Source: Amycolatopsis acidicola
GTDB lineage: Bacteria > Actinomycetota > Actinomycetes > Mycobacteriales > Pseudonocardiaceae
Length of the DNA stretch: 64,000 nt
Assembly: GCF_007713735.2 (NCBI RefSeq)
Contig: NZ_VMNW02000015.1
Coordinates: 62,001 to 126,000 of the forward strand
Direction: 5' to 3'
Position numbers and translations under genes: made by a program. This document shows, one piece after another, positions 22,697 to 36,240 of the stretch (its first letter is position 1; every line of letters starts with the position of its first letter). The notes beneath the pieces were generated by a model. It was given only the letters and a program-made list of their open reading frames with translations. It ran no database searches and had not been told where the DNA came from.

Positions 22697-23755
22697 CTAG
22701 GGGCCGCTGGAGGGGGCGGCGCTCTCGGTCTGGGTGGGGGTCGCCGATTCCTGCGCGCTGCTGGACTGCGTCGGCTGGACCGTTTCCGACTGCGGCGCCG
22801 GGGCCTGCGACTGCGTCTGGCTGGTGGGCGTCTGCGAACCCGTGGTTTTCGTGGACGTCTCGCTCTGCTGCGTCTCGGTCGGGGTCACGGTGGTCGTGGT
22901 GCTGGACGAACCGCCCGAGCCGCCGACGACCCGGCTGAACGTGGTGCCCGAACCGCCGGAGATCGCCTGGCCCGTGATGCCCTCGAAGCCGGTGATGACG
23001 AGCATCCCGACCAGGAACGCGACCACGCTGGTGCCGATCAGCAGCGTCCAGCGGTTCTTCCACCATGGCTTCTTCGGCGCCGCGTCGTCCTCGGGGCCCG
23101 TCAGGACCTGGGTCTGGCCGTTCAGCGGCGGCTGCCCGTTGACCTGCGTGGCACCGTTCACCGCGCCGTTGACCTGCGTGGCACCGTTCAGCTGCGTCGC
23201 GCCGTTGACCTGCGTCGCGCCGTTGACCGGCTGGCCGAACACCTGCGTGCGGCCGTTGAGCGGCGGCTGCGCGCCCTGCCGCGCGATGAACACGGTGCGC
23301 TGACCGGACTCCGACTGTCCGTCACCGGCCTTGGGAATCCACTTCGTCGGCTGGACCGCGTTCGTCTGCGCCGGGGGCAGCTGACCGTGCCGCGCGAGCG
23401 GCATGGCGTCCTGCCGCGTCTGCCGCGGGACGCCTCGCTGCGCGGACGGCTGCATCAGCGGGTTCACCGAGCGCCGTGGCGGTTCGACCAGTTGCGTCTC
23501 CTGGCGCAGCCTGGTGTCGGTCAGCGCGAGGACCTCCTTGGTCTTGCGGACCGCCTGCCGCGTCTTCCGCAGGGACCGTAGATACACCTCGCCGCCCACC
23601 GTCGTCACCACGCTGGCGATGCCCGCACCGACCACGGTGCCCGCGACGCCCAGCGTGGACCCCAGGAACGCCGCTGTGACAGCCGCGAGCGCCGACGCGG
23701 CTATCTGTGCCGGCTTGAGGCCGGCCTTCTCCGTGCTTTCCTTCTCCTCGGTCAT
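22697..23755 (-). CDS. Membrane protein with repeat linker and Ser/Thr-rich tail, function unknown
   Basis: 352 residues from ATG 23755 (MTEEKESTEKAGL). An N-terminal hydrophobic, Ala/Gly-rich region (AALAAVTAAFLGSTLGVAGT type, about 12-55) probably forms a membrane hairpin. It is followed by a long polar linker with tandem six-residue repeats NGATQV, a basic patch KKPWWKNRW, a second span (TLLIGTSVVAFLVGMLVITG, about 245-265) and an outer Ser/Thr/Gln/Pro-rich tail. The layout resembles actinobacterial envelope-associated proteins; I do not recognise a catalytic domain. Convergent with thiE. Confidence 0.75.
   Translation of the reverse strand: MTEEKESTEKAGLKPAQIAASALAAVTAAFLGSTLGVAGTVVGAGIASVVTTVGGEVYLRSLRKTRQAVRKTKEVLALTDTRLRQETQLVEPPRRSVNPLMQPSAQRGVPRQTRQDAMPLARHGQLPPAQTNAVQPTKWIPKAGDGQSESGQRTVFIARQGAQPPLNGRTQVFGQPVNGATQVNGATQLNGATQVNGAVNGATQVNGQPPLNGQTQVLTGPEDDAAPKKPWWKNRWTLLIGTSVVAFLVGMLVITGFEGITGQAISGGSGTTFSRVVGGSGGSSSTTTTVTPTETQQSETSTKTTGSQTPTSQTQSQAPAPQSETVQPTQSSSAQESATPTQTESAAPSSGP
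23138..23231 (-). repeat. 18-bp tandem coding repeat
   Basis: About five copies of an 18-base unit (GTTGACCTGCGTGGCACC and variants on the plus strand) encoding the hexapeptide NGATQV/L on the minus strand. Because the unit is a multiple of three, copy-number change would keep the frame. Confidence 0.75.
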
Positions 23756-30065: not shown

Positions 30066-30548
30066 ATGTCGCCGCTCCCACACTGGACTCCGGAGGGGGC
30101 ACTTCCGCCTGGACGGCTCCCGGCCGATGTCGCCGACATCTACGAGCGGCTGGTGTTCGACGCTCCACACCAGAACGAGCGCGAAATCCTGTTCAGCGCC
30201 CTGAACTCCTACCTCGGCGCGGTCGCGCGGATCATCCCGTCCGGCCGCGCGTGGATCGGCGGCGCGTTCATCACGCGCACCGAAGGCGTGCCGTCGGGGC
30301 TGGATGTGGTGCTGCTGCCCGAAGACTGGGGCAGCCTCAAGCGCATGACCGGTCCGGCGCGCGACGCGTTGTACGGGCTGTTGACGCTGCGCGGGGTGAT
30401 CGTCGGCCAGCCGGCGATGTATCTGGACAAGGTGCAGCCGGTCGGCGGCCTGCTCGACGGGTTCCTCTGCTTTCCCGGTGACGAGGAGACCTGGGAGTAC
30501 ACGTGGTCCGCGCACGGCACCCGCGGTTTCCCCGAGGTGGTGTGGTGA
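30066..30548 (+). CDS. DUF6932-like protein, degenerate nucleotidyltransferase fold (module gene A)
   Basis: 160 residues. The layout LPPG near 13, an Arg-rich helix with NEREILFSALNSYL, then AWIGGAFITRTEGVPSGLDVVLL resembles DUF6932 proteins, whose G-[GS]-x-F-x-T ... P-x-D-[IV]-D motif is nucleotidyltransferase-like. Here the first catalytic Asp appears replaced by Gly (SGLDVV), so it may bind rather than transfer nucleotides. ATG 30066; stop overlaps the next gene as GTGA. Family assignment is from motif memory only. See the finding on this pair. Confidence 0.5.
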   Translation: MSPLPHWTPEGALPPGRLPADVADIYERLVFDAPHQNEREILFSALNSYLGAVARIIPSGRAWIGGAFITRTEGVPSGLDVVLLPEDWGSLKRMTGPARDALYGLLTLRGVIVGQPAMYLDKVQPVGGLLDGFLCFPGDEETWEYTWSAHGTRGFPEVVW

Positions 30549-31429
30549 GTACGGAGTACCGGCGCCTCGCCGACGAAATTCCCGGCGGCACCTGGCTTGC
30601 CGACCTCTCGCGCGCGTCGGCGATGGCCGCGCACGCCAAGTTCGAGCGCACCGCGCGCTCGCCGTTGCTGCGCGTTTCCATGCTGGGCTCGACGAACCTG
30701 GACGCGTACACGTTCTCCGACATCAGCCGCGCGCTGCAGGACGCCACCGCCAAGGTCGGCCACATCATCCGCAACCCGCAGGCTGAGGTCACCTACGTCC
30801 AGCCGACCGATCGTGACAAGGCCCCGCTGCTCCAGCGTGGCCAGGCCGGGAACACGATCTTCTTCGGGTTCCCCGAGCCGGCGCTGGACGACGCGCTGAT
30901 CCACGACGGGATCGAGACCCTGTCCGAGCGCGCGGTCAAGGAGCTCTGCGATTTCCTGCCGGCCAACGGTTCCGACGACGGCGCGCTGGACGCCGTGCTG
31001 CTGCAGCGGGACACGGTGCGCAACGCGGTCAGCGACATCGTCAACGCGGTGGTCAAGAACACCGGCATCGGGCTGCAGCTGACCCCGACCTCGGGCGAGG
31101 ACCTCGCCCGCAGCGTGACCATGGACCAGGCGAAGGTGCTGCAGAGCAGCCTGCGCGAATCCCGGGAAGCCGTCGGGTACGAGACCGTCTCCGGGCGGCT
31201 CGACGGTGTGCGCACCCGGCGGCGGATCTTCTACCTCGAGCGCGAATCCGGCGGCACGATCCAGGGCGCCGTCGCGCCGGACCTGCTGGACCAGATCAAG
31301 GAGAACCTGGACCGCCCGGTGACGGCGCGGCTCCGGGTGGTCCGGACCACCACGATCGACGGCCGCCGCGGCCGCCCGGTGCACGAACTGCTGGAGATCA
31401 CCCCGGAAGTGCACCTCTTCGACCATTGA
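30545..31429 (+). CDS. Conserved hypothetical protein (module gene B)
   Basis: 294 residues of unrecognised family. Mixed alpha/beta composition without membrane spans or signal: an early strand LLRVSMLGSTNLDAYTF, a conserved-looking TIFFGFPEPALDDALIHDGI near 100, and basic C-terminal strands (TRRRIFYLERESGG; TARLRVVRTTTIDGRRGR). Its GTG overlaps the stop of gene A (GTGA), so the two are made together, as partners in toxin-antitoxin or enzyme-accessory pairs often are. No catalytic motif seen. Confidence 0.6.
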   Translation: MSTEYRRLADEIPGGTWLADLSRASAMAAHAKFERTARSPLLRVSMLGSTNLDAYTFSDISRALQDATAKVGHIIRNPQAEVTYVQPTDRDKAPLLQRGQAGNTIFFGFPEPALDDALIHDGIETLSERAVKELCDFLPANGSDDGALDAVLLQRDTVRNAVSDIVNAVVKNTGIGLQLTPTSGEDLARSVTMDQAKVLQSSLRESREAVGYETVSGRLDGVRTRRRIFYLERESGGTIQGAVAPDLLDQIKENLDRPVTARLRVVRTTTIDGRRGRPVHELLEITPEVHLFDH

Positions 31430-31440
31430 GCCCTGCCCGA

Positions 31441-31574
31441 CGCGGCCCTCCCGTGTACGAGTTGGCCCCTCCCGCACACGAGTTGGCCCCTCCCGTCGAC
31501 ATGTTGGCCCTTCCGGTGCACGAGTTTGCCGTTCCCGTGCACGAGTTTGCCGTTCCGGATGCGCGGGTCGGCCC
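31441..31574. repeat. 21-bp tandem repeat array, GTTGGCC orientation
   Basis: Core (G/T)TTGGCC or TTTGCC recurs with exact 21-base spacing: TTGGCC at 31462, 31483 and 31504, TTTGCC at 31525 and 31546, with weaker copies at 31442 and 31568. The unit is roughly CACGAGTTGGCCCCTCCCGTG. It starts 11 bases after the stop of module gene B. See the finding for the opposed array. Confidence 0.8.
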
Positions 31575-31633
31575 GGCGGGGCGCGTCGATCCATGGCAAC
31601 CATCCGGCCACCCCCGCCGCGTGATCGCGAGCA

Positions 31634-31745
31634 GCCAACACACCCACGCGGGCGGCCAACGCGCACACCGGAGCAGCCAACACATCAACGCGCGCGGCCA
31701 ACACACACCGGGGCGACCTCCGGCCACACGCGCGAACGGCCACCA
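31634..31745. repeat. 21-bp tandem repeat array, GGCCAAC orientation
   Basis: GCCAAC at 31634, 31655, 31676 and 31697, exactly 21 bases apart, with degenerate GCCAC copies at 31723 and 31739. GGCCAAC is the reverse complement of the GTTGGCC core of the array at 31441-31574, so the two arrays are head to head around a roughly 60-base centre. Transcripts could form a long imperfect hairpin. Confidence 0.8.
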
Positions 31746-31772
31746 CGCGGGCAAGAGAGAACCAAAGTACGC

Positions 31773-31807
31773 GGCCGTCTGACGCTCCCCCATTGCGTCA
31801 GACGGCC
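31773..31807. terminator. Strong hairpin terminator between convergent genes
   Basis: GGCCGTCTGACGC, a 9-base loop, then GCGTCAGACGGCC: a perfect 13-bp stem. It lies between module gene B and the convergent SARP gene, so it can serve both. No U-tract follows, as is common in actinomycetes. Confidence 0.85.
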
Positions 31808-31863
31808 TATGGGGGACCTTACGCCAGTCAAGCTGCCTGACGCTAAGAATTCGCTAACTGCGT

Positions 31864-34566
31864 TCAAGGCCGCAGAGCTGCGAGTTCGTCCTCGATGGCG
31901 GGCGAACGCAAGGGACTTACACGTTTGCGCAGCTCAAGCGACAGCCGCAGCTGCACACGCGCGCCCTCGAAGTCGCCGCGCTCGCGCGAAATCCGGCTCA
32001 GAGTCGTGCGGGCGACCGCCTCCTGGAGCAGGAAACCCCGGTTCTCCGCCAGCTCGATCGCGGCGCGCGAGTAGCTCGCGGCCGTGTTCAGGTCGCCGAG
32101 GAACAGGTACAGCTCGGCCAGGTTGTTCAGCGACACCACGGCATAGCTGTCGTCCCCGAGCCGCTGGTCGATCTCCAGCGACGCCAGCTGGTGCTCGACC
32201 GCCTCGACGTACTTGCCCGCCTGCTTCTCCGCCTCGGCGCAGTTGTTCAGTGCCTGGCCGAGCAGTTCCTCCTCGCCGCTCCGCTCGGTCTCCGCGATCA
32301 CCGCCTGCAGGCATTCGATGGCCTCGTCGAACCTGCCGGACAGCGTGAGCGCGCAGCCGCGGTGGATCTGCGCGGACAGGGTCAGCCGCGGATCTCCCAG
32401 CCGCCGCGCGAATTCCAGTGCCTGCTCCGCGTCCGCCAGCCCACCGTCCCCGACCTCGAACGTCAGCGCGAACGCGCACCGGGAGATCAACATCCAGTAC
32501 CGCGCCTGATCGTCCCCGCACGCCAGCGCCGACTCCATGCCGATCCGGATCAACCGCGCCCATTCACCCCACAACGGCCGCACCACGCGGTACGTGTGCG
32601 CGACCCGCACCAGCCGCCACACGTCCTCGTGCCTGCCGGCCTCCTGCGCCGCCGCGCAGACCGCCACGATGTTCGGCCACTCCGCGGCGAACCACGCGAG
32701 CGCGTCGTCGTAACAGCCCAGCGCGGGCGCTTCGACCGGCACGTCCAGGAAATCCACCGGGTCGACGATCCGCAGCAGCTTCCGGCGCGCCCTGTCGGCG
32801 GCGGCCTGGTAGTACCGCACCGCCCGCGCCACCACTTCCTCTGCCGGGCCCGCGACCTCCCGCTGGTACAGCCGGATCAGGTCGTGCTGGGTGAACACGT
32901 CCTGCCCCTGCTCGAACAGAAGGTGGTGCGCGGTCAGCACGCGCAACCGCCGACGTGACTCCGCCAGCGTGACGTTTTCCAGCGCTGCCACCAGATGCGG
33001 CCCCGACGTCTCCAGCGAAACCACACCGAGCGCCCGGAACGTGCCGGCGACTTCGTCCGGCAGCCCGCGATAAGACACGTCCAACGCGGCGCGCACCCCG
33101 GCGTCGTCCACGTCCAGCGCCGCCAGCCGGGTGCGTTCGCTCTCCAACCGCGCCACGAACTCCTCGATCGTCCATTGTGGACCAGCAGCGAGCCGGGCGC
33201 CGACGATCCGCAGCGCCAGCGGGAGATCCCCGCACAACCGCGCCAGCCGTTCGTGGTGCTCCGCGGCCTCCCCGCCGGCCAGCTCGGCGATCAGCCGCAC
33301 CGAGTCCTCGCGCGCCAGCGGATCCAGCCTGCGCACCCGCGCCGCGTTGGAGACCACGAGCCCGTCCAGCCGGGCCCGGCTGGTCACCAGCGCGAGCGAA
33401 GCGCCGCCCGGCGGCAGCAGATCACGGACCTGCTCGGCGGAACCCGCGTCGTCCAGCAGCACCAGCACGCGCCGCCCGGCGATCAGCGACCGATACAACG
33501 CGACCCGCTCGGACGCTTGCTCGGGCAGATCCGCGGCCGGTACCCCGAGCCCGAGCAGGAACTGCGTGAGCACTTCGGCCGAGCCGCTGAGCGACGCGAA
33601 CAGCACCCCGTCCGGGAACCGCGTCGCGACCCGGTGCGCCCACGACACCACCAGCGCCGTCTTGCCGACGCCCGCCGCGCCGGTCACGACGGCGACCGCC
33701 CCGTCCGGCAAACCGTTCAGCCAGGCCAATTCGGCGTCACGCCCCGCGAGCGGCCCGGCCGGCGGCAGCTGCCGCGGCACCACGCGCGTGACGTCGACCT
33801 CCGTGCCCGGTTCGGCGCCCGACATCGGCGGCAGGTTGTCGTTGAGGATGCGCTCGTGCAGCTCACGCACTTCCGCGCCGGGGTCGATGCCGAAGGTGTC
33901 GGACACGCGCCGGGCCATCGTCCGGTACACCTCGAGCGCCTCGGCCCGACGGCCGGAGTAGTACAGCGCCCGCATCAGCTGCCCGACGGTCCGCTCCGCG
34001 CGCGGGTTCTCCCGGACCATTGTGGACAGTTCGACGATCAGCTCCGCGTGCCTGCCGAGCGCCAGCTCGGCGTCCACCCGCGCGCCGTGCACCGCCAGCC
34101 GCAACTCGGCCAACTCGGGCGCACGCAGCGAAGCGGGCACATCGGACAACTCCGGACCACGCCACAGGCGATAGGCCTCGGCCAGCAGCTCCGTCCGCTC
34201 CCGCAACGGCGCCTCGTCCGCCTCCGCCAGCAGCTTGCGCGCGCGGAAGAGGTCGATCCGGTCCGGGTCGATGATCAGCCGGTAGCCGGGCGCGACGGTT
34301 TCGATCAACGCCTGGTTGGGCGGGTCGAACGAGCGCATCACCCGGCGCAGCAAGGAAACGTTGCCGTGCACGATGGTGCGCGCGGTGGCGGGCGGGTCGT
34401 GCCCCCACAGCGCGTCGATCAGGTCGTCGAGCGCGACTATGCGGTCGGCGTCGAGCGCGAGCAACGCCAGCAGCCCGCGCACGGCCGGCCCGCCGATCGG
34501 CACCGGGGTTTCCCCGGCCAGCAGCCGGACCGGGCCGAGCAGCTGAATCCGCAAAGCCTCCCGCAC
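31864..34566 (-). CDS. AfsR-type SARP transcriptional regulator with NB-ARC and TPR domains
   Basis: 900 residues: OmpR-like winged helix (1-95; LRIQLLGPVRLLAGETPVPI), BTAD (95-245), P-loop STAND ATPase (from about 265; VVTGAAGVGKTALVVSWAHR, Walker B VLVLLDD near 365), then TPRs (about 640-880; CAEAEKQAGKYVEAVEHQLA, LNNLAELYLFLGDLNTAASY). This is the architecture of AfsR-like activators of secondary metabolism. No biosynthetic cluster is adjacent; nearest are the ectoine genes, read in the same direction. GTG 34566 has GGGGAG six bases upstream. A perfect 22-bp hairpin lies 38 bases before the start. Confidence 0.92.
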   Translation of the reverse strand: MREALRIQLLGPVRLLAGETPVPIGGPAVRGLLALLALDADRIVALDDLIDALWGHDPPATARTIVHGNVSLLRRVMRSFDPPNQALIETVAPGYRLIIDPDRIDLFRARKLLAEADEAPLRERTELLAEAYRLWRGPELSDVPASLRAPELAELRLAVHGARVDAELALGRHAELIVELSTMVRENPRAERTVGQLMRALYYSGRRAEALEVYRTMARRVSDTFGIDPGAEVRELHERILNDNLPPMSGAEPGTEVDVTRVVPRQLPPAGPLAGRDAELAWLNGLPDGAVAVVTGAAGVGKTALVVSWAHRVATRFPDGVLFASLSGSAEVLTQFLLGLGVPAADLPEQASERVALYRSLIAGRRVLVLLDDAGSAEQVRDLLPPGGASLALVTSRARLDGLVVSNAARVRRLDPLAREDSVRLIAELAGGEAAEHHERLARLCGDLPLALRIVGARLAAGPQWTIEEFVARLESERTRLAALDVDDAGVRAALDVSYRGLPDEVAGTFRALGVVSLETSGPHLVAALENVTLAESRRRLRVLTAHHLLFEQGQDVFTQHDLIRLYQREVAGPAEEVVARAVRYYQAAADRARRKLLRIVDPVDFLDVPVEAPALGCYDDALAWFAAEWPNIVAVCAAAQEAGRHEDVWRLVRVAHTYRVVRPLWGEWARLIRIGMESALACGDDQARYWMLISRCAFALTFEVGDGGLADAEQALEFARRLGDPRLTLSAQIHRGCALTLSGRFDEAIECLQAVIAETERSGEEELLGQALNNCAEAEKQAGKYVEAVEHQLASLEIDQRLGDDSYAVVSLNNLAELYLFLGDLNTAASYSRAAIELAENRGFLLQEAVARTTLSRISRERGDFEGARVQLRLSLELRKRVSPLRSPAIEDELAALRP

Positions 34567-34871: not shown

Positions 34872-35774
34872 TCAGCGCGAGACCGGCGTGAAGTCCCTGC
34901 TGCCGATGAACTCCGGCCGCGGCTTGCTCGCCGCGTAGGGCTCCACGAGCGCGTTCTCCACGCTGTTGAACACCAGGAAGATGTTCGAGCGCGGATACGG
35001 CGTGATGTTGTTACCCGAGCCGTGCATGATGTTGGAGTCGAACCAGAGCGCCGAGCCCGCCGACCCGGTGAACTGGTCGATCCCGCACTCCGCCGCGAGC
35101 TTGGTGACGTCGTGCTCGCTCGGCACGCCGATCTCCTGCTCCTTCAGCGAGCTCTTGTAGTTGTCGTCCGGGGTCGCCCCGACGCACTGCACGAACGTGC
35201 GCTGGGAACCCGGCATGACCATGAGCCCGCCGTTGAACGGGTAGTTGTCGGTCAGCGCGATCGAGCAGCTCACGGCCCTCGGCCTCGGCATGCCGTCCTC
35301 GGCGTGCCAGGTCTCGAAGTCGGAGTGCCAGTAGAACCCGCTGCCGCGGAAGCCGGGCATGTAGTTCACCCGGCTCTGGTGGACGTAGACCTCCGAGCCG
35401 AGAATCTGGCGGGCGCGGTCGAGGATGCGCGGATCACGGACGAGCTCACCGATCAGCGCGCTGAGCTTGTGCACCTCGAAGATGGAGCGAACCTCACCGC
35501 TCTTCTTCTCGGTGATCACGCGTTCATCGGCCTTCAGCTGCTCGTCTCCCGACAGCCGGACCAGTTCCTGCCAGTAGGCCTGCACCTCGGCCGGGGACAA
35601 GAGTCCCTCGACGACGTGGTAGCCCTTCGCGTCGTGCGACGCGAGCGTCGCCGCGTCCACCGGACCATCGCCATCGGCACCCCAAACGGTCGGGTCCACC
35701 CGGTCGAACGGCTCCGCCGCACCGGTGACCCGCGTCGGGTAAACGTCCTCGACGCCGGTGTCCATGATCGTCAA
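34872..35774 (-). CDS. ectD: Ectoine hydroxylase EctD
   Basis: Fe(II)/2-oxoglutarate dioxygenase making 5-hydroxyectoine. Carries the family signature FYWHSDFETWHAEDGMPRPR near 145 (His and Asp iron ligands) and the distal His in SNIMHGSGNNITPYPRSN near 248 followed by the 2-oxoglutarate Arg. 300 residues, normal. TTG 35774 has GGAGG nine bases upstream; ATG 35765 is an alternative. Final gene of ectABCD, 76 bases after ectC, so it may have extra internal control. Confidence 0.96.
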   Translation of the reverse strand: MTIMDTGVEDVYPTRVTGAAEPFDRVDPTVWGADGDGPVDAATLASHDAKGYHVVEGLLSPAEVQAYWQELVRLSGDEQLKADERVITEKKSGEVRSIFEVHKLSALIGELVRDPRILDRARQILGSEVYVHQSRVNYMPGFRGSGFYWHSDFETWHAEDGMPRPRAVSCSIALTDNYPFNGGLMVMPGSQRTFVQCVGATPDDNYKSSLKEQEIGVPSEHDVTKLAAECGIDQFTGSAGSALWFDSNIMHGSGNNITPYPRSNIFLVFNSVENALVEPYAASKPRPEFIGSRDFTPVSR

Positions 35775-35850
35775 ATCGGTTCGCCTCCTCTTCGACTGCC
35801 CCTCTTTAATTTGATGTGGTGGGAGTTCGCTCCGCGTCAGCCCGGAGCCA

Positions 35851-36240
35851 TCATTCCTCGACGATGAGCGGGTAAACCCCGTTCTCGTCGTGCACCTCGC
35901 GCCCGGTGACCGGGGGGTTGAAGACGCAGACGGTCTTCATCTCGGTCTTCGGCCGCACCTGGTGCTTGTCGTGGTCGTTCAGCACGTAGATGGAGCCCGG
36001 CTTGAGCTGGTGCACCTCGCCGGTGGCCTTGTTTTCGACCTCGCCCTCGCCTTCGGTCACGAAGACGGCCTCGATGTGGTTCGCGTACCAGAAGTCGTTC
36101 ACGGTGCCCGCGTACAACGTGGTTTCGTGAACCGAGAACCCGAGCTTTTCCTTCGCCAGGATAATGCGCTTGCTCCGCCAGTTCGGCGTCTTGATGTCAG
36201 CGTCGGTGTCGGTGATCTCGTCGAGGGTACGGACGATCAA
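35851..36240 (-). CDS. ectC: L-ectoine synthase EctC
   Basis: Cupin-like enzyme cyclising N-gamma-acetyl-diaminobutyrate to ectoine. 129 residues, normal size: MIVRTLDEI, then [36 protein letters not shown] (metal and substrate region) and the cupin motif [15 protein letters not shown]. Starts with TTG 36240 after AGGAG; the longer ORF upstream overlaps ectB antisense to its sense of use and is not conserved. Confidence 0.96.

Follow-up and report, generated by a model that had tools for sequence, protein, structure and literature searches.

A dispersed 21-bp tandem repeat of Amycolatopsis acidicola lies mostly between converging genes, and its layout suggests kinship with a small transposable element

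A two-armed array of GTTGGC cores in a 64,000-nucleotide stretch of the Amycolatopsis acidicola genome (contig NZ_VMNW02000015.1, positions 62,001 to 126,000; hereafter the window) belongs to a 21-bp tandem repeat that is apparently non-coding, occurs in many copies across the genome and lies mostly between converging genes. Judged by sequence, the array looks like tolerated, mobile DNA whose layout is akin to that of a small transposable element.

The array in the window and its copies across the genome

The positions of the two arms, the spacer between them and the neighboring genes are given in Table 1. The preliminary description of this DNA had placed TTGGCC/TTTGCC cores at 31462, 31483, 31504, 31525 and 31546 and inverted GCCAAC cores at the four starts listed in Table 1; these positions were confirmed, and core positions and TRF together verified the exact 21-bp steps and the flip of orientation in mid-array. 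Its further observations, that the core stays constant while the spacers vary and that the array sits at the end of two convergent genes, also held. TRF reported the left arm at 31446–31551 (period 21, 5.0 copies, score 121) and the right arm at 31626–31706 (period 21, 3.9 copies, score 83), and a repeat search of the window agreed on the 21-bp spacing. The 295-aa upstream gene, which matched no Pfam family, has a single match per genome in all 19 genus genomes searched, A. acidicola included. The 900-aa regulator is one that we take to be SARP/AfsR-like, and two minus-strand open frames beyond it (34872–36240) presumably encode ectoine hydroxylase and ectoine synthase. A separate tandem array with periods of 18, 30 and 36 bp (TRF score up to 132) occupies 23117–23270 of the window.

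Table 1. Features of the repeat array and its surroundings (window coordinates)
Feature	Position	Strand	Basis or remark
Left arm: five GTTGGC/GTTTGC cores, starts 31461, 31482, 31503, 31524, 31545; 21-bp steps	31461..31550	+	pattern and TRF
Central spacer separating both arms, 83 bp	31551..31633	.	
Inverted arm: four GCCAAC cores, starts 31634, 31655, 31676, 31697; 21-bp steps	31634..31702	-	pattern and TRF
Perfect inverted repeat, 13 bp, loop 9 nt	31773..31807	.	probable terminator of minus-strand gene
Upstream converging gene, 295 aa, stop 31429	30542..31429	+	
Downstream converging gene, 900 aa, BTAD/NB-ARC/TPR regulator, stop at 31864	31864..34566	-	

The unit is abundant in the A. acidicola assembly (9.47 Mb, 195 contigs, contamination estimate 6.96). 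Genome-wide, GTTGGC-N15-GTTGGC pairs occur 274 + 309 times (583 in total), as compared with 5 + 2 (7) for the reversed control; with a free gap of 5–35 the counts are 348 + 372 against 27 + 21. Pairing of GTTGGC at 21 bp is thus beyond chance. A BLAST search with 31400–31800 as query returned at least 86 matches in the same genome. Placement was analyzed in 453 kb comprising long blocks of contigs C66, C140 and C107, window included, with genes called by a simple codon-usage finder; these blocks were picked as known array carriers, and array density in them is not the genome average. The commonest spacings between GTTGGC pairs there were 21 (25 pairs), 42 (14) and 63 bp (7), followed by 29, 9 and 68 bp (3 each). 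All 25 pairs with 21-bp spacing were non-coding, in a sample whose non-coding share is 10%.

Of the gaps of at least 1 bp in these blocks, 53 are convergent, 181 tandem and 78 divergent, and arrays occupy 5, 1 and none of them, respectively; the convergent bias (5/53 versus 1/259 other gaps) has a Fisher p of 6e-4. Once the array is subtracted, array-bearing convergent gaps are about equal in length to those without arrays (median 80, n = 23, versus 62.5, n = 48; p 0.14), which fits insertions. We further examined 51 array loci of A. acidicola, most of them fetched through similarity or pattern. Contig ends hold 15 of these; the other 36 comprise 22 convergent, 11 tandem and 3 divergent loci, including three that overlap called genes and were kept in the counts. 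Arrays frequently begin within tens of bases of stop codons. Because contigs often end in or beside arrays, fragmented assemblies probably undercount them. With head-to-tail units of tens of bases and repeat numbers that differ among loci, the arrays have the form of minisatellites.

Conservation of the core was assessed by the agreement between adjacent units in period-21 TRF arrays that are non-coding, as compared with random hexamers from the same arrays. Across 13 arrays of the 453-kb blocks, core agreement was 0.92 against a mean of 0.78, and none of 52 hexamers scored as high (80 were drawn, of which 52 were kept after removing those overlapping the core). In 38 arrays of the congener G012, taken from stretches selected for containing the core, agreement was 0.83 versus 0.76, with 0 of 43 hexamers as high, and hexamers shifted into GTGTT scored slightly above GTTGGC. 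Such agreement points to some degree of selection on the core, to its recognition, or to its involvement in how units are copied.

A ~230-bp element with IS630-like ends

The congener G004 has the 21-bp unit within an element of ~230 bp whose copies are near-identical; 20 of them were fetched and 13 measured. By eye, both halves of the element consist of 21-bp units with GTTGGC, GTTTGC or related cores, arranged head-to-head. The measured copies carry CTAG at the right end in 13 of 13 cases and at the left end in 11 of 13, consistent with a target-site duplication. Being short, multicopy and bounded by terminal inverted repeats, the element is a MITE. BLAST with the element gave at least 44 matches in G004, and 15 copies were placed in A. 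acidicola, where the right-end pattern has 15 matches and the reversed pattern 1. Only 3 of 19 genus genomes contain the element end pattern: A. acidicola (17), G004 (59) and G018 (1), with controls at 0. The G018 match belongs to a 435-bp remnant in which both element-like ends enclose a 111-aa transposase piece that matches Pfam DDE_3 (3.3e-13) and reaches 78 of the 100 bits required for the NCBIfam IS630 transposase, below cut-off. No intact autonomous IS630-type copy with such ends was seen in the sequences examined, and the window array is devoid of element-type terminal inverted repeats, with no CTAG in 31400–31900.

Of the element's copies, 9 of 15 in A. acidicola and 6 of 19 in G004 are flanked by converging genes (one of the 20 copies, lacking a right neighbor, was left out, and one counted as convergent sits in a called gene), as compared with the 22 of 36 array loci noted above, a set in which two are copies of the element itself. 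The difference in placement between element and arrays was not significant in the pooled data (p 0.23) and borderline in G004 alone (p 0.05). The spacer consensus sequences of MITE units and array units match at no more than 7 of 15 positions (p 0.23 by permutation), so the kinship between element and arrays is drawn from core, period and layout.

Distribution and orientation of the arrays in relatives

Absence of 21-bp phased arrays from related genomes had been named in the preliminary description as evidence against it; such arrays are present. Exact GTTGGC-N15-GTTGGC pairs are numerous in four congeners (G009, 159; G012, 109; G004, 105; G007, 84) and fewer in four others (G013, 28; G001, 22; G017, 16; G010, 13), with reversed controls of 0 to 5 across these eight; the remaining ten congeners have 5–12 pairs versus 2–13 in controls. 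Sequence stretches held in common tie G004 to A. alkalitolerans and G018 to A. acididurans. The largest excesses among the 101 genomes from other genera were 24 versus 4 (G027), 16 versus 3 (G119) and 14 versus 2 (G058). The family is therefore patchy within the genus. Of 297 genomes of the bacterial family, 56 gave matches to a relaxed four-core pattern, including 10 of 19 in the genus (314 matches in A. acidicola, 237 in G012) and 46 of 278 outside it, with at most 26 matches (G027); judged by their letters, some of these matches come from perfect satellites or from a single conserved site that is probably coding, and a few controls give matches as well. The possibility that other genomes favor 21-bp repeats in general was considered and rejected: across nine genomes sampled at 80–100 kb each, repeats in convergent gaps had many periods and 21 was not dominant, a weak negative since none was found there in G009 despite many elsewhere in that genome.

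At the corresponding position, no GTTGGC array lies downstream of the counterpart of the 295-aa gene in any of 18 congeners, which is weaker evidence than it appears because the downstream neighbor often differs there. Likewise, none of 51 loci in named records has a GTTGGC array in the same gap; the next called gene is not convergent in 34 of them, and A. arida alone has a 21-bp tandem repeat there, right after the gene's stop codon. In several congeners this gap contains repeats of other periods. A different tandem family with a step of ~23 bp and units like GGTCCACTC/GATGAACGGACCACTCA occupies it in G010 and G009 (L060, L067) and is seen at L115:4300-4406, and by eye the gap is full of low-complexity NCGGC-like repeats in G002, G017 and G013 (L053, L058, L063). 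Gene contexts of arrays in A. acidicola and G012 overlap little: a BLAST comparison of the flanking proteins, 87 from A. acidicola and 43 from G012, produced 4 hits, of which the best had 61% identity and lay in a different arrangement.

Spacers and orientation of the arrays depend on the species. Adjacent facing arms in A. acidicola were head-to-head in 24 cases and tail-to-tail in 1, a count that includes 20 loci found by similarity to the head-to-head window, a selection that favors this order; loci found otherwise gave 12 head-to-head gaps and 1 tail-to-tail pair. In G012, 20 stretches selected from a listing contained 6 adjacent pairs that were tail-to-tail and 1 that was head-to-head. 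In G009, all 5 two-armed groups among 12 groups were tail-to-tail, in stretches chosen from a listing whose 4 close opposite pairs were all of that kind, and both close opposite pairs listed for G004 were head-to-head. By eye, several arrays of G009 (L261, L263, L264, L266) adjoin another dispersed repeat, and some centers there are near-perfect 22-bp palindromes, e.g., GGCCAACACGCGCGTGTTGGCC. The earlier question of whether phase and inversion are conserved thus has a divided answer: 21-bp arrays recur in relatives, but the head-to-head inversion that prevails here gives way in G012 and G009 to a mostly tail-to-tail order.

Facing arms are separated by distances that cluster at 8.7 modulo 10.5 (n = 27, R 0.53, p 4.5e-4), both in similarity-found loci (n = 15, p 0.028) and in the others (n = 12, p 0.012). 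Other periods also score across all 27 gaps (10 bp, p 0.0016; 11 bp, p 0.018; 21 bp, p 0.0056). Given that several periods were tried and that the loci may share descent, the phase is only suggestive. The spacing nonetheless suggests modest support for helical phasing, one of the two functions initially proposed; the lack of a conserved inversion across species speaks against it.

Origin of the arrays and comparison with known systems

We consider it probable that the repeat is a dispersed minisatellite of extragenic DNA, some of it carried as an IS630-type MITE, and that it is tolerated between converging genes. Units would arrive at new sites by mobile-element-like copying, at least partly as the ~230-bp MITE; slippage or recombination may then lengthen and shorten the arrays, and these would persist mainly between converging genes, where presumably no promoter is harmed. 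Any effect on transcription would be secondary. Core conservation together with the weak 10.5-bp phasing is unexpected for purely passive DNA, and makes protein binding or bidirectional termination possible.

A role of the arrays at the ends of convergent genes, as insulators or as terminators of transcription from both directions that work either by RNA folding or by stalling polymerase, seems rather unlikely to us, although it would account for the bias toward convergent gaps. At one locus (L009) the array leaves just 6 and 15 bp beside the stop codons and hence probably little space for another terminator; some array centers form tight palindromes, and 14 folded array segments gave z values from +0.7 to −12.2 (15 shuffles each). 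In the window, however, the minus-strand gene has its own hairpin (Table 1), and by eye a similar hairpin precedes the same kind of gene in G018, G005, G013 and G009, at loci that have no array. Convergent gaps that carry arrays and those that do not have similar best local hairpins (median −29.4 versus −25.1, 21 each). A terminator consensus scan of 31300–31950 detected no terminator-like site; it showed no G+C-rich hairpin followed by a T run, and it found no T run for the hairpin at 31773..31807. A Rho-like C-over-G bias of the 3′ transcript was inconsistent in A. acidicola, with a sense-strand skew of +0.085 in the 53 arrays that have GTTGGC on the sense strand and −0.098 in the 20 that have it on the antisense strand, and inconsistent again in G012 (+0.144, 10 arrays; −0.205, 23 arrays). 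The long hairpin RNA proposed at the outset as the other possible function finds weak support: the window gap folds with a z of only −1.83, and by eye the arms of one locus can differ in spacer type (L009). A search of 31000–32200 for known RNA families yielded no Rfam match up to E 1.

We regard as still less probable, indeed as distinctly doubtful, that the arrays are helically phased sites at which a dyad-covering protein binds and serves as a roadblock or nucleoid element. The exact 21-bp step, a core more conserved than other hexamers in the array sets of two genomes and the phased gap between facing arms all speak for such sites; against them stand the success of other periods in the phase test, the possible common descent of the phased loci, an arm orientation that varies between species and the other repeats behind the same gene in G009, G010 and similar relatives. 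A combined version, in which lineage-specific, dyad-symmetric protein-binding arrays with helical phasing would insulate converging genes and be spread by a site-carrying IS630-type MITE, appears just as improbable. The remaining reading, that the period reflects a seven-codon protein repeat, has almost no chance of being correct. Open frames do span the arrays, and two frames sharing third positions have a synonymous excess in A. acidicola (z 5.2 and 3.8), yet the same frames reach just 0.3 and 1.9 in G012. Changes number 243, 348 and 395 at first, second and third codon positions, the second nearly equaling the third, and the exact pairs of the 453-kb sample all fall outside called genes. 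Six open frames over the window array matched no Pfam or NCBIfam family, in line with the initial statement that no frame holds a credible gene. These results disfavor heptapeptide-repeat coding, and the window array is very probably not coding.

A large extragenic repeat family with a MITE relative thus occupies gaps between convergent genes in one actinomycete group, the Amycolatopsis group, which is known for antibiotics. The arrays coincide with breaks in the assembly and, if functional, would offer a handle on the separation of converging transcription in GC-rich bacteria. No description of a 21-bp family in this group was found in the part of the open literature sampled. REP/BIME sequences with RAYT, as presented in the portion consulted of PMC2817692, resemble the arrays in being extragenic, inverted in arrangement, high in copy number and species-specific, but they use RAYT transposases, and a RAYT match (Y1_Tnp, PF01797) was present in 1 of 19 genus genomes (G011) and absent from A. 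acidicola and the array-rich G004, G007, G009 and G012; a RAYT-driven origin was rejected for want of this transposase. In the consulted part of PMC5217627, the uptake-signal pairs of Haemophilus influenzae are likewise one short sequence found genome-wide, often as opposite pairs at gene ends; those are dyad pairs in terminators, whereas A. acidicola has 21-bp arrays.

The ~230-bp element finds parallels in RUP and other small bacterial MITEs of about 100–200 bp, RUP being linked to IS630-Spn1 (PMC2229807, consulted in part): both are non-autonomous and intergenic, with IS630-like ends and a TA-containing target. The word "tandem" is absent from the text of that source, and in our case only the ~230-bp element has such ends. 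The closest known system is the BrickBuilt MITE of Porphyromonas gingivalis, in which a 23-nt tandem repeat lies in a small element with inverted ends (PMC4596501, likewise consulted in part). The window array, unlike BrickBuilt, is without terminal repeats; "convergent" does not occur in the main text of that source, nor were head-to-head arms found described in it, and its 19 copies in one strain compare with hundreds of units over many loci here. What BrickBuilt and the A. acidicola repeats have in common, as far as that source goes, is a short tandem repeat within a small inverted-end element that is multicopy, intergenic and species-restricted.
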